The position numbers were made by a program, and so were the translations under genes. Below are positions 1,877 to 57,784 of a DNA stretch of 64,000 nt, piece after piece; position 1 is the stretch's first letter, and the number at the start of each line of letters is the position of its first letter. Under the pieces are notes generated by a model. It made no database searches. It was not told the DNA's origin and saw only the letters and a program-made list of their open reading frames with translations. The DNA lies in NCBI GenBank assembly GCA_028751875.1, contig CM054167.1:20560912-20624911 (forward strand). The letters are read 5' to 3'. Source of the DNA: Rapana venosa (taxonomy: Eukaryota; Mollusca; Gastropoda; Neogastropoda; Muricidae).

Positions 1877-3517
1877 TCAGACCCGTGACCTTGGCGGTCG
1901 TGGGGGAGACATGAAAGACGATGCCGTGGTAAGCCTCCTCCATCCATCTCGGTCCTCGGCTCTGCGCAGTAGTGCCGAGTCATTCATCCTGGTCCATTCT
2001 CTGATGTTGTCCATCCATGACTTGTTCTGTCTTCCCCTCCTTCTGCCACCTTCGAGTGTTCCCTGCAGTACTGTTTTGGGCAGAGTGTTGTGGCGGGTGA
2101 CGTGGCCGAACCATGTCAGCTTTTTCTTCTTGACGATGGTGAGAAGGGGTTCCTGTGGACCTGCCAGCCGTGTTATTTGACTCTTGACAAATTCGTTGGT
2201 CTTTCGTTCTCTCCAGGATATGCCCAGTAGTTTTCTATGGCATTTTGTTTCGAATGACTGGATTCGCTTTGCTGTTTCAGCAGTCAATGTCCAGGTTTCA
2301 CTTCCGTACAGCAGGATCGACTGAATTAGGGCTTTGTAGAGCTTTAGTTTGATTGGGAAACTGATCTCTTTACTTTTCCATATGGTGGCGAGTTTTGTCA
2401 TGGAAGATGTTGCCATGGCTATTCTGACTTTGATTTCTGTCGTCGATCGCCCGTCCTTTGTGAGTGTAGCGCCGAGGTATTTAAAAGCGTCTACCTCCTC
2501 CAGTTGTTGGCCGTTCATGTAAATTTTAGCGGTGGCATTGCTCGTGCTGTTCACAAGTACTTTACTTTTCTCCGAGCTCACCTCCATCCATATGCTCCAG
2601 CTCTGTTCTCAAGTCTGGTCGTAAGATCTTGCAGCTCTGTGTTACTTCCGCCCATGAGGTCAATGTCATCGGCAAACCGTAAGTTGTTGAGGGGTCTGCC
2701 GCCAATGGAGATGGTAGGGTGGAAGTCATGGAGGGTCTCTCTCATGATGTTTTCCAAGAACAGATTGAACAGGACTGGAGATAACAGGCATCCTTGTCGG
2801 ACCCCAACTGTGGTTTTGAAGGAGTCTCCGACCTGATTGTTCAGAAGGACTGCACTGCTTGCAGTGTTGTATAGTGCTTGAATGGTTTTGCACTAGTCCT
2901 TCTTCAATGCCAAACATTCTGAGGACTGCCACAGGCCTTCGTGCCATACTCTGTCAAAAGCTTCTTGAAGTCGATGAAGTTGTGGAACAGGTCTCTCTGA
3001 TGTTGAAGATGTTTTTCCATCATGATGTGGCAGTTAAAAATCTGTTCGATTGTGCTCCTGCCTGCCCTGAACCCAGCTTGTTCCTCTGCAAGGTGTTCTT
3101 CTGCCTCCTTCTTGAGTCGATTCAAAATAACTTTGAGCATGATCTTGCTGGCGTGGCTGATGAGGCTGATTGTTCTATAGTTTTGGCATTGGCGTAAATT
3201 CCCCTTCTTGGGCAGGGGTATGATGAGTGATTGTGTCCAGTCTGTTGGCCACTGTTTTGTCTCCCAAATCTTCTGACAGATAGCTGTAACATATGTGATG
3301 ACTGTTTCGCCACCATGCTTGAGCAGCTCTGCTGGTATATTGTCTGCTCCTGGGGGACTTTCCTACTGGTAAGCTGCGGATGGCTTCTTCCACTTCTTCC
3401 CTCAGTATAGGTAATGGCGAGGGTGCTCTTGATGTTGCTGCTTTCTTCTTTTATGCTCTTGTCAGGTTGTATTGGGTAGTTGTACAGTTCTTGACAATAT
3501 TCAGACCACCTGTTCAA
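1877..3517 (-). pseudogene. LINE reverse transcriptase, several frameshifts
   Basis: RT sequence is spread over several minus-strand frames: 3517-3122 (SEYCQELYNYPIQ, thumb-proximal linker), 3140-2904 (LNRLKKEAEEHLAEEQAGFRAG then FIDFKKL), 2947-2726, the FADDIDLMG catalytic box (FADD at 2665-2676), and 2587-1877. The last part holds YLGATLTKDG, LLYGSETWTL, LLGISWRERKTNEF and LTWFGHV. The order and spacing are those of an RTE-like polymerase. At least three frame changes make it non-functional. It ends at a stop that overlaps the TGA-repeat tail. Confidence 0.85.
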
Positions 3518-3910
3518 TGCAGCTGAGCTTTCTGTGAGGAGGTTTCCGGAGCTGTCTTCAATGACTGATGATTTGGTTTGAAGTGGTTTTGTGAGTTTCT
3601 TCAGGGTGTCGTATGCTTTTTACTGTTGCCCACTTTCATGTTTTTTTCGATCTCATCACATTGATCACTGATCCACTTCTCTCTGGCCTTTAACATTGAC
3701 TTCTTCACGAGATTGTTGGCCTCCCGGTATTCTTAGGGTTGGAAGACCTGGTTGGTTTCAGTGCTCTTCTTGTATCGCAGAGGTCCAAGATGTCATTGGT
3801 AGTCCATGGCTGGTGTTTATTCCTTGATGACCGAGTACCTCCTCTGCTGTTTCTCGGACTGCCTCATTGAAGTTGTTGGTGAGGTCATTGATGTCATTGT
3901 CCAGGTAGGG

Positions 3911-4926
3911 TTAATGCCGCAAACGTCCGCCAAGCTTAGCTTGGAAGATCTCCTCGACATCTGGATCTTTTAGTTTGTCCACGTCAAATTTGATACGTGG
4001 GTTTGCAGGCTGTTTGTTTTTCTTCAGCTTCATTTTGAATACCAGCAGCACAAGGTCGTAGTCGCTGCCTATGTCAGCTTCAGGATAGGTTTCTGTTCTG
4101 GCTCTGTTGATGCTGGATTTGAAGCGCCGTGGTGTTAAGATAAAATCTATTTGGTTATGGATCTTGCCGTTTGGCGCATGCCAGGTTGTCCTCCTTGACT
4201 GCTTGTGGGGATAGAGGGTATTGGCAATGGTAAGTCTGTGGGTGCAGGCAAACTCCAGCAGACGTAGTCCCCTGTCGTTGGTCTCCCCAGTTTCCAAACT
4301 GACCAACTGTTCCGGCCATTGGTTGTAAGAGTCAGGACCTACTTTGGCGTTAAAATCCCCTTGGATGATGATGATGTCCTTCTTGGGTATTTTCTTAATG
4401 GTCACTTCAAGATCTTCATAAAATTCTTCTACTTCTTCATCTGTATGGTCAGATGATGGTGCATAGATTTGTATGATGGTGATGTTCTTGGGCTTGGCCG
4501 ACACCGGATGCTGATAATCCTGCTGGAAGCCGGTGTACAGCTGATAATGCACCCCACTACTTCCTTTCTGACAATAAATGCCACTCCATGTTGGTGATGT
4601 TTCTCTTGGCCACTGTACCAGATCTTGTTGCCTTCTTCAGTCAATGTCTCACCAAATCCTGTCCATCTCACTTCTCCTAGTCCAATAATGTCCCATTTAT
4701 ATCGGCTAAGCTCATACTCTAGTTCTTTGATTTTTCCACACTGGTAGAGTGTACGGACGTTCCATGTACCAATGGTGATTTGTTCTCTAGGGAGCTTAAG
4801 TAATGTTTTAACTCCAGTAGCTGACTTATCACTTCCACCCTGGTGTTGATCAATGGAAAGCGCGGTCGTTGGTAACCCGGGCCTCGACCGATCCGGTATC
4901 ATTTCGGCTTTGCATTTGTCTTTCAT
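3911..4926 (-). pseudogene. LINE apurinic-like endonuclease domain, frameshifted
   Basis: Two overlapping frames (4926-4429 and 4552-3911) together make one exonuclease/endonuclease/phosphatase-fold domain that would nick target DNA for LINE insertion. Visible motifs in order are TWNVRTLYQ, IIGLGEVRWTG, a GVAFIV strand, IIQIYAPSSDH, GDFNAKVG, NQIDFILT and GSDYDLVL. The usual final SDH is SDY here, so a catalytic-region His is lost. The frame change lies near 4500, between SIR and SAKPKNITI. It is followed downstream, after an unreadable linker (about 3520-3910), by the RT of the same element. Confidence 0.85.
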
Positions 4927-5139
4927 GTTTTTTCTGTGGGCTTAGGATATTCCTTGGTGGCGCCAATCTCCTCTCCAAGTCTCCATATGTTTTGGGTTTT
5001 TTCTATTGGGGTTTCCTCCCCCACATGCAACAGGTTGTACTGGGTTACATGGATACCAGTAGCAGTAGCAGAGAACTTCTCTGACTGAGCAGAGGCCAAA
5101 AAGTCAGTCAATGATACCCCATTGCCGTATACATACAAA

Positions 5140-28700: not shown

Positions 28701-31227
28701 AGTTTTGAGGCCCCGTGTTTGGGAGTACCAGGTGTCTTCAGTGTGGCGGTGTGCTGAAGCACCAAGGGGCTGACATCTCTGGTGTCTTCTGCTTGAAGTA
28801 CCATGGGAATGGTGACATCTCTGGTGTCTTGTGCTTGAAGTACCATGGGAATGGTGACATCTCTGGTGTCTTGTGCTTGAAGTACCATGGGAATGGTGAC
28901 ATCTCTGGTGTCTTGTGCTTGGAGTACCATGGGAATGATGACATCTCTGGTGTCTTGTGCTTGGAGTACCATGGGAATGATGACATCTCTGGTGTTTTGT
29001 GCTTGAAGTACCACGGGAATGATGACATCTCTGGTGTCTTGTGCTTGAAGCCCCATGGGAATGATGACATCTCTGGTGTCTTGTGCTTGAAGCACCAAGG
29101 GGCTGATGACATCTCTAGTGTCTTGTGCTTGAAGTACCATGGGAATGATGACATCTCTGGTTTCTTGTGCTTGAAGTATACCAGGTGTCTTCAGTGTGGC
29201 GGTGTGCTGAAGCACCAAGGGGCTGATGACATCTCTGGTGTCTTGTGCTTGAAGTACCATGGGAATGGTGACATCTCTGGTGTCTTGTGCTTGCAGTACC
29301 ATGGGAATGGTGACATCTCTGGTGTCTTGTGCTTGAAGTACCAAGGGGCTGATGACATCTCTGGTGTCTTGTGCTTGAAGTACCATGGGGATGGTGACAT
29401 CTCTGGTGTCTTGTGCTTAAAGTACCATGGGAATGGTGACATCTTTGGTGTCTTGTGCTTGAAGTACCATGGGAATGGTGACATCTCTGGTGTCTTGTGC
29501 TTGAAGTACCATGGGAATGGTGACATCTCTGGTGTCTTGTGCTTGAAGCACCATGGGAATGATGACATCTCTGGTGTCTTGTGCTTGAAGTACCATGGGA
29601 ATGACGACATCTCTGGTGTCTTGTGCTTGAAGCACCATGGGAATGATGACATCTCTGGTGTCTTGTGCTTGAAGCACCATGGGAATGATGACATCTCTGT
29701 TGTCTTGTGCTTGAATATTAAGGGAATGATGACATCTCTGGTGTCTTGTGCTTGAAGCACCATGGGAATGATGACATCTCTGTTGTCTTGTGCTTGAATA
29801 TTAAGGGAATGATGACATCTCTGGTGTCTTGTGCTTGAATATTAAGGGAATGATGACATCTCTGGTGTCTTGTGCTTGAAGTACCATGGGAATCATGACA
29901 TCTCTGGTTTCTTGTGCTTGAAGTATACCAGGTGTCTTCAGTGTGGCGGTGTGCTGAAGCACCAAGAGGCTGATGACATCTCTGGTGTCTTGTGCTTGAA
30001 GTACCATGGGAATCACATCTCTGGTGTCTTGTGCTTGAAGTACCATGGGAATGGTGACATCTCTGGTGTCTTGTGCTTGAAGTACCATGGGAATGATGAC
30101 ATCTCTGGTGTCTTGTGCTTGAAGTACCATGGGAATGATGACATCTCTGGTGTCTTGTGCTTGAAGTACCATGGGAATGGTGACATGTCTGGTGTCTTGT
30201 GCTTGAAGTACCATGGGAATGATGACATCTCCGGTGTCTTGTGCTTAAAGTACCATTGGAATGATGACATCTCTGGTGTCTTGTGCTTGAAGTACCATGG
30301 GAATGATGACATCTCTGGTGTCTTGTGCTTGAAGTATCATGGGAATGATGACATCTCTGGTGTCTTGCGCTTGAAGTAACCATGGGAATGATGACATCTC
30401 TGGTGTCTTGTGCTTGAAGTACACCAGGTGTCTTCAGTGTGGCGGTGTGCTGAAGCACCAAGGGGCTGATGACATCTCTGGTGTCTTGTGCTTGAAGTAC
30501 CATGGGAATAATGACATCTCTGGTGTCTTGTGCTTGAAGCACCATGGGAATGATGACACCTCTGGTGTCTTGTGCTTGAAGCACCATGGGAATGGCGACA
30601 TCTCTGGTGTCTTGTGCTTGAAGTACCATGGGAATGATGACATCTCTGGTGTCTTGTGCTTGAAGTACCATGGGAATGATGACACCTCTGGTGTCTTGTG
30701 CTTGAAGCACCATGGGAATGGCGACATCTCTGGTGTCTTGTGCTTGAAGCACCATGGGGATGATGACACCTCTGGTGTCTTGTGCTTGAAGTACCATGGG
30801 AATGATGACACCTCTGGTGTCTTGTGCTTGAGGTACCATGGGAATGATGACATCTCTGGTGTCTTGTGCTTGAGTACCAAGGGAATGATGACATCTCGGG
30901 TGTCTTGTGCTTGAAGCACCATGGGAATGATGACATCTCTGGCGTCTTGTGCTTGAAGCACCGTGGGAATGATGACATCTCTGGTGTCTTGTGCTTGAAG
31001 GTCCGTGGGAATGATGGCACCTCTGGTGTCTTGTGCTTGAAGCACCATGGGAATGATGACATCTCTGGTGTCTTGTGCTTGAAGTACCATGGGAATGATG
31101 ACATCTCTGGTGTCTTGTGCTTGAAGTACCATGGGAATGATGACATCTCTGGTGTCTTGTGCTTGAAGTACCAAAACGCTGACTTCCTGGGCGTCTTCTG
31201 TGGAGGTTGTACATTGCTGGCCAGTAC
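28701..31227 (-). repeat. 42-bp minisatellite filling an exon-like interval (putative exon A)
   Basis: About 58 units carry TGACATCTCTGGTGTCTTGTG, then CTTGAAGTACCATGGGAATG. Variants are GCACCA, GGGGCT and a spacer GTGTCTTCAGTGTGGCGGTG that recurs about five times. Unit length 42 keeps frames open: the plus strand gives KYHGNDDISGVLCL, the minus strand FKHKTPEMSSFPWY, VLQAQDTRDVIIPM or TSSTRHQRCHHSHG. On the minus strand the array is bounded by an acceptor, TTGTTCTCAG (31230-31228), and a donor, ACT/GTAAGTATG (intron from 28700). Unique codons at both edges look protein-like (VQPPQKTPRKSAF; TLKTPGTPKHGASK). Units of 41 or 43 bp shift the frame, so no single frame crosses the array. Confidence 0.6.
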
Positions 31228-40804: not shown

Positions 40805-42512
40805 TAATTTTTTTTTCTTTTTTATAGCAAACATTTTACATATATAATACAACATACGCACACAAAGGAACATTAAAGCCATGAGACATTCAACAATCAG
40901 CAACTATGGATAGATGTAAACAAACTCTTCAATGTAAACATAGCAATGAAAAATACTCTAACGAGTTTGCAATATTCTCACAAGTTTGTCAGATTTTCTT
41001 ATACATACGTCTGATCATTTTCGAGTACAATTGGTTCAAATGCACTCCAAGCATTGAGAAAGTCTGTCAATTTACCACTTATTCTTGCATTAAATTTTTC
41101 TATTGCATATCTAGCTTTTAGTTGGTTTTGAAATACAAACAAATTTGGGATTTTGCTAGTCATTTTACACTTAAATATATATAGTTTACCAAACATTAAA
41201 ATAAAATCCAATATATCATTTGTTTCTAGATACTGATCAACTCCAAAAATGACAAGTTCTCGTGACATCTTAAGAGAGTGAATATTATGACATTTTTCAT
41301 TCAACAAGTGTTCAACAGCATTCCAAAAAGAACGTACAAAGTCACAGTTCCATAAAAAATGTTCAATAGAGTCTCGTTCCTTCTGACAAAGTGAACATTG
41401 TGCAGTATCTGTTACACCCATAGCATGAAGAATCACATTAGTAGCAATTATTCTATGTACGATTCTAATTTGTAGCCATTTAAATTGTACATCTCTGGTT
41501 CTGTGTATTTTGCTGAAAATTTTGTCCCATGGTATACATGCATTTATTTTTTCTGACCATTTGGAACAACATTTTGGTTTATTGTTATCGGATGTTAGGA
41601 TTTCATAGTACTTTTTTGCTCCTTTATGTACGCTCAATATACACTTTATTGCACAAAACATACCTCCATGTTGAGTATTATCATCTATATGGATTCCCGT
41701 TTTTTTAACATATTGTTTTATGGCAGATATCCATCCATTGTAGGTGATAAAGTCAATACAAAAGCTTGTATCATTTTAAAAAATTCTTGGTATTTAACAA
41801 ATTCTCCATTTTCTTTAATAAAGTGTTTTATAGAATATACCCCTTTCTTTATCATTTTATCTTGTTTAACTGTAGCGTTTCTACTTTAATATTTTCATTA
41901 TAGAAGATTGGCTCTCAAGAACTCGTACTGGTTACGTGGTATGATTTGAGTACAAAAATTCTATATGCTCTAAATACATGAGCCCAAACGAGTAATACTT
42001 GTATATTTTAAGGTATATGTTGGCCCATAGCATTCTAGGTTTTCAAGAAATGGGTAGGTTTCTATAGCAATATTTTTCCACTTGTGCTCTGTTATTTTAC
42101 TTTTTCTTATCCAGAAAATGTTTAAAGCAAAAATGTATTTTCTAATATCTGGAATGTTAAGTCCACCTTGTTTAATCGTTTTAACTGCTGTTTTCCTGTT
42201 AATTCTATCGTTTTTTCCGTTCCAAACAAACTGAAAGCATAACTTTTGGAGCTTCTGTATAAACTGGTCAGGTGGATCTGGTAGCAGAATCAAGAGATGG
42301 ATTAACTTTGACAGAATAAGAGATTTTAGTACAGCAACTCTTCCAATTGGAGTGATGGTTCGTTTTGCCCAGATTCTAAACATCACTTTTACTTCCGCTA
42401 ACTTATCTTTATAGTTGATATTTTCACAGTCAACTAAATTATCAGTAAACCAAATCCCTAGTATTTTAAATTTAGATGGGTTCGCTTCGTTGAGCAATCT
42501 GCAGAAACACTA
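40805..42512 (-). mobile_element. L1/Tx1-like LINE, 5'-truncated (C-terminal ORF2 only)
   Basis: The minus strand holds the end of a LINE ORF2 in two frames. 42497-41970 has ILGIWFTDN, RTITPIGRVAVLKSL, FVWNGKNDRINR and GGLNIPDIRKY, the region after the RT palm in L1/Tx1 proteins. 41661-40999 has CSLCQKERDSIEHFLWNC, the CCHC-like zf-RVT module, and ends at 40999. An A-rich 3' end lies near 40805-40830. No RT catalytic box is present, so the copy was truncated on insertion. It abuts a DIRS recombinase fragment at 42512-42525. Confidence 0.85.
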
Positions 42513-50945: not shown

Positions 50946-51359
50946 AGTCCAGTGGACCTCTGATATAAGAACACCGCAGGGGCAAGCATTCTGGTGTCCT
51001 TATAAGCGAGGGTCCTTATAAGCATAACCTCGGTTATAAGGTCAGTTGTGGAAGTGTGTGTTCTTATAACTGAAGAAAGAAGAAAATAGCGTGGACAAGC
51101 TAAAAAGAGTTGTATATCGGCCTCTAATGGTCTGTGTGTGTGTGTGTGTGTGTGTGCGTGCGTGCATACGTGTGTGTGTGTGTGTTTGTGTGTGTGTGTC
51201 CACGGCAACTTCTTGCTTGTTTATGCGTCAATGCAATGGAACTTGCTAGTTGGGTTGAAAAGTTGAATATCTCGATGCAATCTCGTTTACGTTTTTGGTG
51301 TATTGCAAACAAAAACATGAATTCAATTCAAATAACACTAGAACGTATGTAACAGTAGC

Positions 51360-51477
<118 letters not shown>

Positions 51478-51811
51478 ACATTTTGACAAAATAACTTAAC
51501 AAATACGTGTGTGTATTCCAATTCTGCTTTTAATTTGGCACCGTCAGTCATAAAAAATAGGAAAAACAAGTTTATACACGGACACTTGCACATGTATACC
51601 ACAAACAAATGTAAGTTACAAACAGAAACATGTTGCCTAACATAGCATGATTCCGAGGTGCAGACATGCTGTTGCCACGCATGTACACTAACACAAACCA
51701 AATACAATGTATTGAAGTTTAGGTGTGAAATGCCATGAACAGAACCTCATTGTACACTACTGTAACTTTTTTCAAGCTTTTGAAAGTAATTGACTCAAAT
51801 CAACACACACA

Positions 51812-51850
<39 letters not shown>

Positions 51851-51916
51851 TGGCTCATGCTAGAGCACCATTCCCATCTAATGTCAAGCGTTGACTTTAC
51901 TTATTGAAGTTCATAA

Positions 51917-54169
51917 TCAGAATTCCGTGAAGGGCACTTCACTTACACTAACAACCCGTTCAAAATGACCGCAAAGGTTGCGCAAATACACCCTTTCCTG
52001 GCCGATTTCAACTCCAGGAATTGAGAACAGTGGCATGTGCGGTATCCATTGTCTAATGGTCTCACTCACAGCTGTATACACAACAACTGGAGTTTGAAGC
52101 AACGTTGCAGCTGCATAGATCTCTGCGTCTGAACCCCAGGTGTTCAGTTCCAGATTGTTTCTTGCGACATACTGCCCAAGATCCTCCCCAACGTAAGCAG
52201 CAAATTTGGTGTGATTTTTCAGCATAAAATCTACAGTAATTGCTCTTACTTGTTCGTGATGGGCTTGTGTCCCACAAATGTCCAAACTGATAGCTCTATA
52301 CAAACAGTTCCCATCGCCAACGATGGTGTTGACTTCTAGTGGCTTCCCCAGATCTACATTGCTTTTCCTCTCTGGCAAATCAAATGGCTCTGGCAAACCT
52401 AACCTTTGGGCTTGCTGTTTGCGCCAAGAACTGCTCGTGGGACTGAAAATTTGTCGTGGTCCTGGTTCGAACCCCACAATACGCACTGTTTGCGTGTCTT
52501 CCTTCCCATCTTTGCTGAGGTCATGCACTGATCTATGCATCTGTTTACCATCTGTTGGCACTCTGCTCTCTTCACTCTCACCTGACTTCCCCTTTCTTGC
52601 ATCACCTGACATCTCTGATTCATCCGACATCTGCCCTCCATCACCCGACATCTCCCCTGCATCACCTGACTTCCCCTTTCCTGCATCACCCGACATGTCC
52701 TCTGCATCACCTGACTTCCCCTTTCCTGCATCACCCGACATGTCCTCTGCATCACCTGACTTCCCCTTTCCTGCATCACCCGACATGTCCTCTGCATCAC
52801 CTGACTTTCCCTTTCTACTACCGGTGTCTGCTTTCCCCGGGACCCCATTCTCAGTCCTAAAAAAGTCAGTAATGTGTGTCTGCCTTTTTGCCTCTGCCAC
52901 GTGCTTTTCCAGCAAAGCAGTGAACACATAAAACGAGTCTAGGACATCATCAGCACAACCCGATCGCAAACAGTACGCATTGATTTTCTCAACACAGTCT
53001 AATGCAGCCCTGCTTGAAATCGATGGCATCTCTTCCCCGCAGTCATCCTCTCCACCTGATGCCTCTTCAATGACTGTTTCTGGGGCTGTTGATGTCGAAG
53101 GGGATGGTACCGTCGGAGGACTTGTTGGCTCTGAGGTTATGACATCATCATCGACGCCGAAGTACTCAGAAGGGGAAATGTTAAATTCCTCGAACAGGCG
53201 TGCCAGAAGAGGTTCCTGCTTCTCAGTATCCTCAGTGTCTTGTGAGCTGTTGCTGTCGTCTCCATCTTTGTTGCTGTCGCCTCCGTCTTTGTTGCTGTCG
53301 CCTCCGTCTGTAGCTTCAGACATGCAAAAGCCTGCACTCCGGAAGCTGTTGATTGTTGAAGGGGACACTTTGTCCCATGACTGTTTCAGGAGGGAGGCTG
53401 CTCCGAGCAGACTGAACTGGAAGTCCTCTGTTTTTCCACCAGCATCGATGTGTGCCAGCAGCTTTGAGACCATCGCCGTTCGGTAGTGTACCTTCATGTT
53501 GCGAATGATGCCAACATCAAGTGGCTGGAGCTTTGAAGTGGCATTAGCGGGGAGAAAAAGTACTTTGGTTGCTTTGAGTTCTGGAATGTTGTGGCTTGCA
53601 CAATTGTCGAGCACCACAAGCACTTTCCGATTCTGTGTTCCATTTCTCTGTCAAATGAGACCAGCCATTCTATGAAAATCTCACTTGTCATCCATGCCTT
53701 GGCGTTTGCTTTGTAGGCAACAGGCACCTTTACTCCGCGGAAGCATCTTGGCTTCATGAACTTGCCGATGGTTAGAAGGGGTAGTTTCTCCGTGCCATCC
53801 ATGTTGCAGCAAAGCAGCACCGTAATTCTGTCTTTTGATTTTTTTCCACCATGGCACTTTTCCCCTTTGAATGCCAATGTTTTGTTGGGGAGGAGCCTCC
53901 AGAAAAGGGCTGTCTCATCAAGGTTGAAGACATCTTTTTGTTCAAAATCTTTCAATGTGGGTTTCAAGACCCCCTCCACCCATGAATCAGTCACTTCTTC
54001 GTTGACAGCTGCTCTCTCTCCACTCACAGTCTTGAACACGACGCCGTGCCTCTTCTTCCACCGATGCAGCCACCCCTCGCTACACGTCCAGTCACCAAGT
54101 CCATGGGCCAGCGCCAGCTCGCTTACCTTGACTTTCAACATGGGCCCACTGATGGGGACATTTTGTGAC
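51917..54169 (-). pseudogene. Transposase exon 2: CENP-B/DDE_1 transposase fused to an OTU cysteine protease, one frameshift
   Basis: Part 1 (54169-about 53645): CENP-B second HTH (LKVKVSELALAHG, CSEGWLHRWKKRHGV), then DDE_1 with FNLDETALFWRLLP (first Asp) and KDRITVLLCCNMDGTEKLP. A missing base near 53645-53655, after FDRE, shifts the frame. Part 2 (53623-51917) resumes at VLVVLDNCASHN (second Asp), LPANATSKLQPLDVGIIRNM (third Asp), then an acidic linker with 15-residue repeats (KGKSGDAEDMSGDAG). It ends with an OTU-like domain: VGDGNCLYRAISL (catalytic Asp and Cys, 52286-52318), YVARNNLELNTWGSDAEIYA, TPVVVYTAV and RNLCGHFERVV (candidate His, codon at 51965-51967). Pogo elements normally end after the DDE domain and an acidic tail. 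OTU proteases cleave ubiquitin chains; that role here is inferred. Confidence 0.85.
52598..52822 (-). repeat. 45-bp in-frame tandem repeats in the transposase-OTU linker
   Basis: Three to four near-identical units encode GKGKSGDAEDMSGDA, followed by diverged units (GEMSGDGGQMSDESEMSGD). Their near identity shows recent expansion. Confidence 0.9.
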
Positions 54170-54867
54170 CTGCACACATCATTGCTGGGCAATAATATTA
54201 ACACCGATCAGTCTATTTTGGTTAGGCAAAAAAAAAAAAATGTTTCTGGTAACCCGACCAACCCTAGTCTGAACCCCTCGACCCTAAATTTTGTTTTGGC
54301 TGCTGGGAAAAAATACAAAAACATGGCCATTTTCGGCTTTTTTGTGTGTGTGCGCCTGGCGTCTGGGATATTGTGCGCCATCGCGGACTCAAGATTAGAA
54401 TTGTTTGTATGGCATGGTGATCAAGCTTCTATAGCTACCTTTTCAATAGAAAATAGGTTTCACAGAGCATCATTTCTCTTTTCTATGTTCTTAGGTATAT
54501 GCTAGGAATAGGGTGGGGTGGCAGTAAAAAAAATAAAAAGAAAAGAAAAACAAAATCAAAAAAAAAACTTTCCAACCTACCTACCCTAATTTTTTGCCAT
54601 GTTACCAGAAACACACACACACACACATACACACACACACACGCACCCACCCACGCACACACACACACATGGGGTGGGGTTGGGGGGCGGGGCGATTTTA
54701 CCGTTTGTCAGGCCGGGAAGGGTTGGGGGGGAGGGGTTCCAAGTCCAGCGACAGCCGATTTTTGCACCCTCACGATCGCTCCAATTCAATTGGGGGCAGA
54801 GGGTGGGCGAGGTCTGGATTCCCCCTTCCCCTCTCGAAAGAAAAATGATCTGCCAATTGAGAGAGAG

Positions 54868-54913
<46 letters not shown>

Positions 54914-54916
54914 CAC
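54170..54916 (-). other. Intron of the transposase gene with nested microsatellites
   Basis: GTGAGC at the 5' end and TGTGCAG at the 3' end. The 747-bp interval holds a GA array (about 54863-54910), a CA array (about 54608-54669), G-rich stretches and A-rich runs near 54230 and 54525-54570, and no exon-like segment. Confidence 0.7.
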
Positions 54917-55185
54917 CTTTTCACAGAAAACCACTCCAACAAAGCAGTGTCAACAGTGCCATGCCCGGAGCCTCTTGCACACTTTCTGGAAATATCATTC
55001 TTGCCGCTTTCAAACTGCCCAATGTATTTGGCTTTTTCTCTTACAATATTGAGCAAAGTCGTCCTGGGAACTTTCATTTCATCAGCGATGAGACTTTTGC
55101 TTTTGTGAGGGCTCCGCTCGACCTCCCTGATAATTTCTACTTTTTGTTTGAGAGACAATGCTTTTCTCTTACGCTCCGCCATCAT
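54917..55185 (-). CDS. Pogo-like transposase exon 1: CENP-B N-terminal helix-turn-helix
   Basis: Starts at ATG (55185), two Met codons in a row, and reads MMAERKRKALSLKQKVEIIR, then KSLIADEMKVPRTTLLNIV. This is the psq/CENP-B N-terminal HTH that binds the transposon ends. It closes with VDTALLEWFSVKR at a consensus donor, AAAAG/GTGAGC (intron from 54916). Length is 269 bp, leaving phase 2. Joining to exon 2 completes the Arg codon and yields WFSVKRSQNVPISGPMLK, the normal continuation into the second CENP-B DNA-binding helix set. The phase match and motif continuity make the intron convincing. Confidence 0.8.
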
Positions 55186-55189
55186 GCCT

Positions 55190-55668
55190 TTCTGGTGTTG
55201 GAAGGGTGAACAGTGAAGGTTCGGGGGATAGGGATGTTAGGACACTGGCACTCCACACTCAACCGAATGATGTGAGGCCACGCAGGGGTGTTATGGTAAC
55301 ACAATTTATTGTTTCATCTACACACAACACACACCTGAAACAAAGATAAAACTCAGGTAACTACTCTATCCATATTTAACTAGGCACATCATTGATGAAA
55401 GGCACACACAGCAAAATAGCTATATTGTCGTCCAGCCGAATGTAAGAAAACCAAATTCCTTTCATCACTCACACCAAAATACCAAGTTAATCCTAGGGAA
55501 CCAATAGAGAGTATACAGTTGTAAACCATAAAACCAAAGACTACAAAATAACTAGGAAAATCCTTTCCTCAATACTCTCAACTGACATTATGATAATGTC
55601 AACAGAACTTAGTCTATACTAAGATCTTTCATAACATTGGTCCCTATTATATCCCATGGATATTGTAG

Positions 55669-55746
<78 letters not shown>

Positions 55747-57400
55747 AATCTAGTGTCACACAACCCCATACAAATTAACCGCTTTTGACACCAATGACTA
55801 ACCATACACCAGTCACACCTACATATCAAGACTGCCTACCTTCACTGGGCAATTTCTATAAGGGCCTAGCTAGGCCTAGTCCTGTACTGCATTCAAGTCT
55901 AACCTTTCAAGTCTTCAAGTTCAACTCTTTGAGCAGTCAACTCTTTATCTCAATTCAACTTTGCTATATGGTATTCTATCCCAGTAGCTCTGTTACCAAA
56001 TCCACATTATTTTGATCAGTGCAATTTACAAACTTCATCTCAACATGATACCCACATCAAATGATTACTTGCTCATAAAATTCCATTTCTCACATGAACA
56101 TCCAATTATGGAATAAATCCAAGATCACACAATTAAATAGTAAAAGTCTCATGACTTTAGCCAATATTCATGTGTAAAGCAACTACACACACTTTCACTG
56201 AACTAGTCACAATATTCGATCAATAGCAAAATTCCGCTAGTACACACAAATAAGATTTACTTATCAAATCAGCATTTTCCTTAATAAATCTCTTTAAGAA
56301 ACAACTTATATCAAAAAGAGAAATTCTCACTTACAGCTCAAGCAGGAGAACAAAACTTCTGTTTCCTTCTAAGTCATTCTGTCGTTTCACCACACACAGC
56401 CTAACTCAAGAAGAAAGTTGCCTCGGACAGCCAGCAAGAGAAAGACTTTAAAATGCCATGTACACCCTATCATATCGGTTCAGTTGCAGGACTACTAATT
56501 CCAACTGACCAATGAATACATTTGGAAACTGAGACGAACAAATCCTAACCACACATCAAACCAGCTGACAAACAAATTTAAATCAACCAATGTAGTCTCT
56601 GCATGACAAATCTGCTGGTTCAGTAGAGGAGATGGGGGGTGGGGGGGTAATAGAGAGGGAAAAGGGGGATGCTATTCAACAAGAGGCCTACAAACAAGTC
56701 TGTTGAATAAGACTAGCTGCAGCAAGCTCTGAAGTGCTTATTACATCACTGTTCCACTGGACATTCTAGGCTACGACAAGGACTCAGGCCATGAATAGAG
56801 AGGACTCCAATGTAGCTGAGCCACCAGCTCTAATAAAAGGATAGGCCTACATTGAGAACACTTAGCTGCAACCATGGCAAGGAGTTGCTCACAGAGACAT
56901 GTTGGACACTTAAGGTGAGAGAAGGTGCCACAGTACCCATGCCTCACTTGTTTACTAGGCCTCCCAAGTCCACTGAGACACTCATGACACCTAAGCTAAG
57001 ACAGTTCACACATGGATTGGTTGCCAATGCTCCAAACTCACTGATGGAGACATGCTGGACACCAAAGGGAAGAAAAGGGCTGTCAACACAGACCCCAATG
57101 GGCCTCCCTAGCTAAAGTCTCAAGTGGGATTAAAAGAATCATCAGCCCACAACCACAGGCATCCAAACAGACTGAGAAGTTGTTTGTTTGGACACAACAC
57201 TGTAACACTGTTAGGTTGTCAAAGAAACCTAACTCTGTCTTTGGAATTGCTGAACTAAGCAAATCATGAAGTCTAGCCAAGTTGAACAGTTCTTTTTAGA
57301 AGAGGGGGGGGGGAAGGAGAGGGTAAGGAAAGGGGGGTTGTAGTTCAAAGTTATAGTGCGCAAAGTGCACACTATAACACTGGAAGAAAATTTCTTGGAA
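55190..57400. other. 5' region of the pogo-like element, no second gene seen
   Basis: Contains a GA array (55672-55741) and AT-rich DNA. An imperfect duplication of about 150 bp (56895-56965 and 57040-57110) is marked by GAGACATGTTGGACACT / GAGACATGCTGGACACC and GGCCTCCC. No additional ORF with a domain is seen. Confidence 0.45.
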
Positions 57401-57434
57401 GTGACTCATACCGGTAACAAAACGAGCATAACTT

Positions 57435-57757
57435 CTACTTTCAGTTCTTACATCCGAGGGGAGGTCGTGTCGGGAACAAGCAAATGGAGTTCTTACAAGC
57501 GAGGGTTCTTGATCTTTTAACGGAATAATCTGACTTCCTGAAATGATAATTCCTACTTTCGGTTCTTATATCCGAGGGAAGTTCGTGTGGGGACCTTGCA
57601 AGTGCTGTCCATATAGGCGATGGTTCCTATATCAGAGGGTTCTTTTATGCGAGTTTTAATAAGTGATCACAAAGAACAACTTTGGCAGGGACATGCTTTT
57701 GGGTGTTCCTATAAGCGATGGTTCTTATATCGGAGGTCCTTATAAGTGGGGTCCACT
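57435..57757. repeat. Right subterminal motif array of the pogo-like element
   Basis: Repeated words in one direction: TTCTTACATCCGAGG, TTCTTACAAGCGAGG, TTCTTATATCCGAGGG, TCCTATATCAGAGGG, TCCTATAAGCGATGG, TTCTTATATCGGAGG and CCTTATAAGTGGGG. The left end (50950-51070) has the same words in the opposite sense. These are likely transposase-binding sites. Confidence 0.75.
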
Positions 57758-57784
57758 ATACATATTTTGGCATTTTTTGTTGTT

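Follow-up and report, generated by a model that had tools for sequence, protein, structure and literature searches.

A pogo-superfamily transposon of the gastropod Rapana venosa with a transposase joined to a C-terminal OTU-type domain

A minus-strand gene in the genome of Rapana venosa appears to join a transposase to an OTU-type cysteine protease domain, raising the question of whether such a fusion belongs to a mobile element and serves it, or was formed at a single site. The gene lies in a 64,000-nucleotide stretch of GenBank assembly GCA_028751875.1 (contig CM054167.1, positions 20,560,912 to 20,624,911), hereafter the window, which corresponds to C34:20560912-20624911 in the searched genome (2.28 Gb, 2004 contigs; the genome searches score the best candidates only). 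An earlier note on this sequence had described a single Pogo/Tigger-like gene with an OTU-like domain at 51917..55185. The present analysis revealed that the window almost certainly holds one decayed copy of a gastropod pogo-superfamily cut-and-paste transposon, whose transposase carries a C-terminal OTU-type domain, a predicted deubiquitinase. The features of this copy, assigned to family A, are as follows.

50950..57758, minus strand: whole element; alignments to the copies L036 (on C2), L037/L038 (C1) and L041 (C14) begin at 50950 and finish at 57763-57765, the final bases being TA and a few more.
54917..55185, minus strand: exon 1, with the start codon and the CENP-B_N helix-turn-helix (HTH); Pfam CENP-B_N and a splice site read in the sequence.
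54170..54916, minus strand: intron of 747 bp, GT...AG; the protein P0013 aligns to exon 1 and exon 2 as a single unbroken protein.
51917..54169, minus strand: exon 2, with HTH_Tnp_Tc5, DDE_1, linker, OTU and stop codon; a frameshift lies near 53625.
53345..53835, minus strand: DDE_1 catalytic domain, DD29D; Pfam DDE_1 in both frames, 29-residue spacing.
52578..52815, minus strand: 45-bp tandem repeats encoding the GKSGDAEDMSGDA portion of the linker; the repeat number varies among copies.
51944..52447, minus strand: OTU module including the conserved pre-OTU segment (PTxxxWRxxQ...LGLP), from Pfam and a seven-sequence OTU alignment.
52304..52306, minus strand: predicted catalytic Cys codon (GDGNC), invariant in the seven aligned OTUs and retained in L036, L044, L045 and L049.
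51965..51967, minus strand: predicted catalytic His codon (HFER), invariant in the seven aligned OTUs and retained in family A to E copies.
50950..50975, plus strand: terminal inverted repeat (TIR) on the 3' side of the gene, CAGTGGACCTCTGATATAAGAACACC; ends read in the copies.
57721..57758, minus strand: TIR on the 5' side, consisting of CAGTGGACC (first base mutated in the window), 15 extra bases and TCCGATATAAGAAC; ends read.
55196..57379, no strand assigned: insertion of 2184 bp with TG...CA ends and a 4-bp CTGG duplication, resembling a solo long terminal repeat; foreign to the element and absent from L036, L038 and L041.

Pfam analysis of the three open reading frames (ORFs) of the gene revealed CENP-B_N (2.3e-10) in ORF 54913-55185, HTH_Tnp_Tc5 (7.8e-10) and DDE_1 (2.4e-21) in ORF 53494-54204, and DDE_1 (1.8e-16) followed by OTU (2.7e-12; 47.8 bits against a cut-off of 23.3) in ORF 51917-53623; the integrase domain rve gave no match up to E 1 in these three ORFs. 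The motifs NLDET, LDNCASH, QPLDVG, VGDGNCLYRAIS and CGHFERV were all present. In read-through numbering the transposase triad consists of D174, D277 and D307, with 29 residues separating the last two, and the linker between transposase and OTU is approximately 300 residues long in the window copy. Thus, the OTU-type domain and the other domains and motifs reported in the earlier note could be confirmed on the minus strand, but its single gene is interrupted by the intron and by the frameshift, and the interval that it gave is too short for the element, which also includes the 2184-bp insertion. Because of the exon 2 frameshift, the window copy is unable to encode the whole protein. The insertion sits 10 bp upstream of the transposase-OTU ATG, and an origin of the OTU as a piece of it could be ruled out, as it lies at the opposite end of the gene.

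The two ends of the element match in two blocks, one end holding the 15 extra bases. The three other family A copies have TA next to each of their ends (CAGTGGACC...). In the window copy TA is found at one side and TC at the other, and the right end is altered in its final base. HTH, DDE and OTU sequence was found between the ends of all four family A copies, and since the same ends enclose all three, the OTU lies within the mobile unit. TA followed by the left end (28 bases) was found 74 times in the genome, compared to none for the reversed control, and the nearest such site outside the window is at C34:20627303. Since only four of the 74 sites have an OTU match no farther than 10 kb away, and the other 70 are more distant from one, non-autonomous relatives probably exist, and the solitary sites would probably be elements mobilised by a transposase of the window type.

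Both HTH domains above the Pfam cut-off, a DDxD spacing of at least 29, a TA duplication and a short TIR were all found, in agreement with the pogo superfamily (pogoR/Tigger), for which CENP-B_N with HTH_Tnp_Tc5, DD29D, TA duplication and TIRs under 40 bp are described (PMC7386202). Unlike those elements, the window element adds the long linker and the C-terminal OTU. The name Tigger used in the earlier note is loose, as several close transposase matches, among the 120 of 1107 listed, were TIGD4- or TIGD6-like, and the TIGD4 and TIGD6 genes are assigned to the pogoR family (PMC7386202).

The transposase-OTU fusion is a property of a transposon lineage and not of a single locus. A genome search with the window OTU returned 81 matches, which were merged by position into 59 OTU loci, and a search with exon 2 returned 89 matches, merged into 76 DDE loci. 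Of the 17 DDE loci whose identity to the window DDE was 38% or more, 14 had a same-strand OTU no more than 8 kb downstream, compared to two of the 59 less similar loci; no OTU was observed in the 8 kb upstream, or on the opposite strand, at any of the 76. Two of the three similar loci without a downstream OTU are on C23 and one is on C7. The 14 positive loci include the pair L044/L047, whose alignment spans 7.6 kb and runs past the element limits, and the pair L039/L040, which is duplication-like in appearance. A chance neighbourhood of OTU and DDE was rejected, as 59 OTU loci in 2.28 Gb give an expectation of approximately 1e-4 per DDE locus. A host gene adjoining the transposon was likewise rejected by the shared ends and TA duplications of the dispersed copies.

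At least five deeply diverged families with both DDE and OTU occur in this genome. Family B (L044, L045) matches P0004 (833 amino acids) at 94-99% over most pieces, and its ends are distinct but related (TACAGTAGAACTCGGTTATAAGG...). DDE and OTU were also paired in families C (L049), D (L039, L043), E (L048, L050) and F (L046). Among families A to E, mutual synonymous change was saturated or nearly so.

No DDE match was found upstream of 43 of the 59 OTU loci. Of these 43, 16 align with family B, and L016, one of the others, has TIR and tail sequence of the family A type. Compared with L042, these 16 loci (L009-L012, L014, L017, L018, L020-L022, L025-L028, L032 and L034) are internal-deletion derivatives. 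In six of them, which have one breakpoint pair in common, the DDE and most of the HTH exon are missing and the OTU remains; in four others, which share a different pair, the HTH exon is present together with the OTU from GDGNC onward. They look like ordinary internal deletions, though the recurrence of the breakpoints is curious. A stand-alone OTU protein made by these derivatives was considered and dropped, since their OTU frames range from 58 to 297 amino acids with no common start (the Cys motif was present in nine of ten inspected).

Fused proteins were also found in Babylonia areolata (LOC143286474; P0001, P0002), Littorina saxatilis (P0018) and Batillaria attramentaria (P0012, P0019), together with P0004 and P0013. 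Babylonia, Littorina and Batillaria are marine caenogastropod snails. P0013 (887 amino acids) is complete, with CENP-B_N, Tc5, DDE_1 and OTU; it derives from a 3424-bp contig that may be a spliced transcript, given its unbroken match to both window exons. P0012 and P0019 contain CENP-B_N, Tc5 and DDE_1 together with a second OTU type. P0004 is without the CENP-B_N exon, P0018 keeps part of it, and the Babylonia models start within the DDE. For Babylonia and Batillaria the proteins are gene models taken from databases. When proteins were searched with the Littorina OTU, the query was the sole match although 60%-identical relatives exist, and therefore absence from the protein searches means little. 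The possibility named in the earlier note, that the OTU part is a separate gene joined only at this site, is answered by the same TIR-bounded element in four copies, by the further families and by the proteins of the three named snails.

The OTU Asp, Cys (DGNC) and downstream His were invariant in all seven aligned sequences, and copies retaining them were seen in families A, B, C and E. The solved structures nearest by sequence were OTUD5, OTUD1 and OTUD3, with OTUD5 giving both top figures (3pfy, 2e-11 for a single sequence; 3tmo, 5.9e-17 for a profile). These are stand-alone OTU proteins, whereas the window OTU ends a transposase and is accompanied by the pre-OTU segment and HFER. Judged from its family and residues, the domain is predicted to remove ubiquitin. 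Comparison of the window with family B (L045) revealed 90.7/111 synonymous and 116.3/393 replacement changes in the OTU, and 148/188 synonymous and 161/670 replacement changes in the DDE. The corresponding replacement divergence (dN) was 0.377 for the OTU and 0.290 for the DDE core, so that the OTU is close to, and slightly above, the core; between families A to E, dN ranged over 0.35-0.63 for the OTU and 0.29-0.55 for the DDE core. A mere passenger would be near saturation at both kinds of site, and the saturated synonymous change with low OTU replacement change between families therefore indicates that selection kept the OTU. Purifying selection has acted on the OTU almost as strongly as on the core of the transposase, and the OTU is very probably a selected working part of the transposon.

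A quick tree was constructed from 122 rows (the window, P0001, P0004 and 119 other proteins among the 120 of 1107 matches listed), from which 28 rows were chosen for a transposase tree. In the 28-row tree all seven included OTU fusions fell in one 13-row clade (98/98), which was also recovered by the 122-row tree at 99. No OTU match was found in the remaining 15 rows of the 28-row tree. The five fusions carrying the window's OTU type (OTU1) were not rejected as a single transposase clade (p-value of the approximately unbiased test, p-AU, 0.107).

Several observations weigh against a working OTU carried throughout one lineage. All four family A copies are damaged, with at least a DDE frameshift in the window, a DDE stop in L036, several frame breaks in L041, and in L037/L038 a broken DDE frame, an OTU stop and approximately 5 kb separating the linker from the OTU. 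Within the 13-row clade, P0015-P0017 are without an OTU match and P0014, P0020 and P0021 are long-tailed with no recognised OTU; with these six members, the OTU is therefore not universal among relatives. The seven fusions as an exclusive transposase clade were rejected (p-AU 0.035). At least one OTU key residue has been lost in the family D and F copies L043, L039 and L046. Asp or Asn is usual two residues after the OTU His; this position is Glu in OTU1, and Asp in the second type (OTU2) of P0012 and P0019. The within-family replacement/synonymous ratio ranged from 0.24 to 1.41, with 1.0-1.4 for the OTU in three family B pairs, and was 0.55 when pooled over eight family B deletion derivatives. 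As expected, the within-family ratios fit copies that decay after insertion and give no support for present selection.

These ratios, the clade members without an OTU and the family B derivatives, which retain or lose parts of the OTU with no obvious relation to reading frame, would suit an OTU carried along neutrally, as a piece of a gene that was captured and is of no use to the element. This is improbable, as OTU replacement change between families stays near that of the core while synonymous sites are saturated, and families A, B, C and E have copies with the catalytic residues intact. Far less probable again is that the fusion is not a mobile unit at all, and arose by domestication as a host gene, by accidental adjacency or by faulty joining in a gene model. 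Such a reading could point to the gene-model status of the proteins from Babylonia and Batillaria, and to the missing TA and the insert of the window copy, but identical termini, TA duplications in dispersed copies, and constant order and strand exclude it for the window family. A domesticated pogo gene, being a conserved single locus, has neither TIRs nor a target site duplication, whereas TIRs, TA duplications and four dispersed copies were found here. The OTU is thus best regarded as part of the transposon.

An OTU in the same polypeptide as a transposase has been described before. In Ginger1 elements a DDE-type transposase carries a C-terminal OTU or Ulp1 domain, with OTU in elements of Hydra, Aplysia and pea aphid (PMC2836005). 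The window protein is similar in having a C-terminal OTU; however, the Ginger1 enzyme is Gypsy-integrase-like (rve), whereas the window enzyme is DDE_1 with CENP-B/Tc5 HTH domains, a TA target and short TIRs. The same paper reports protease or deubiquitinase domains in Helitron, Mutator and Ginger1 elements (PMC2836005). Helitrons with OTU or VTD resemble the window element as mobile elements that encode their own deubiquitinase domain, but are rolling-circle Rep/helicase elements (PMC9741609). Activity has been measured for helitron VTD, while transposon OTU domains are without activity tests according to those authors (PMC9741609). In the main text of a pogo survey, extra domains are mentioned for domesticated genes only (CENPB, POGK, POGZ), and the word "protease" is absent from it (PMC7386202). 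The earlier note knew of no pogo-family transposase with an OTU, and literature searches agree, no pogo, Tigger or Tc1 transposase with an OTU or deubiquitinase being described in the limited library that was searched, outside of which lie Repbase, Dfam and subscription papers. The element thus represents a known trick, transposase-OTU fusion as in Ginger1, in a superfamily for which no earlier report was found.

The OTU sequences themselves are of two types. OTU1 (window, P0001-P0009, P0013, P0018 and the THAP model P0011) forms one clade when OTU2 is taken as the far side. OTU2 is present in the two Batillaria proteins, and its identity to OTU1 is 21-36%, still significant. P0010, which has an integrase domain (rve), falls outside the OTU1 clade (97/96; 95/93 in a second OTU tree). 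It is 41% identical to the window across the whole OTU module including the pre-OTU segment, and appears to be Ginger1-like. The OTU data joined P0012 and P0019 (100/100) and rejected P0012 with the window group (p-AU 0.0001), while the transposase data rejected a clade of P0012 and P0019 (p-AU 0.0009). Such conflicting trees suggest, as the simplest reading of two gene models only, that the OTU was replaced or exchanged. The OTU tree also placed P0018 weakly beside family A (82/86), a grouping rejected by the transposase data (p-AU 0.0009), but A joined to B, as the transposase data have it, was not rejected by the OTU data (p-AU 0.08).

The second OTU type in Batillaria could instead be an old divergence of one OTU, with no replacement or exchange; only two sequences, both gene models, are concerned, and their identity to OTU1 is significant. 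This is unlikely in view of the opposed verdicts of the transposase and OTU data on P0012 and P0019. A single OTU acquisition followed by losses and swaps fits the trees, and more than one acquisition is a possible alternative. A wider reading, proposed tentatively at somewhat under even chances, is that a portable module of pre-OTU segment and OTU moved between Ginger1-like integrase elements and pogo, and was swapped for the second OTU type in the gastropod pogo clade. If true, unrelated transposases would have been repeatedly equipped with one and the same means of acting against the ubiquitin system of the host.

Two further OTU sequences were observed. The locus L054:2248-2598 (C33) is a second-type OTU, 53% identical to P0012, belonging to a host gene or another element; no DDE match was found in the 2.2 kb upstream of it. 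P0011, a gene model of Nucella lapillus, joins a degenerate copy of OTU1 (GDSNC, no HFER) to a THAP domain, which may be either exon capture or an annotation error.

In the mechanism proposed here, the CENP-B/Tc5 HTH would bind the element ends, the DDD site would cut and join DNA, the long repetitive linker may keep the OTU beside the transposase-DNA complex, and the OTU would remove ubiquitin in cis. The likeliest substrate, put forward with some hesitation, is the transposase complex itself, which would be shielded from ubiquitin-dependent removal; helitron deubiquitinases have similarly been suggested to prevent degradation of proteins needed for transposition (PMC9741609). The second choice, a rather doubtful one, falls on chromatin or repair proteins where the DNA is cut. 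With the same anatomy and another substrate, the OTU would then act on the host, deubiquitinating histones or DNA-repair proteins wherever the transposon is excised or inserted, and biasing repair toward the element. The likeness to OTUD5, OTUD1 and OTUD3 and the tethering to a DNA-binding transposase are in its favour, as is the possible role in activating repair factors that the Ginger1 authors suggest for OTU and Ulp1 domains (PMC2836005). The helitron proposal, in which transposition proteins are protected, speaks for the other substrate, and action on the host is placed at well below an even chance.

Other features of the window are remnants and repeats. At 1880-4941 on the minus strand, frames resembling a long interspersed nuclear element remnant contain RVT_1 (2907-3362) and Exo_endo_phos_2 (3914-4636). 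A zf-RVT domain at 41002-41775, minus strand, is probably a second non-long-terminal-repeat remnant. At 28771-31173, a tandem array of approximately 58 copies of a 42-bp unit produces long open stretches in several frames.

The pogo superfamily, which is ancestral to the CENPB, POGZ and TIGD genes (PMC7386202), now includes an OTU combination, and the evidence for selective retention of the OTU derives from divergent families in one genome. With a two-exon gene, clear ends, the complete P0013 and the OTU-less P0015-P0017, whether transposition needs deubiquitination is therefore directly testable. A transposase-borne OTU suggests that mobile elements fight or exploit the ubiquitin system of the cell during their movement.

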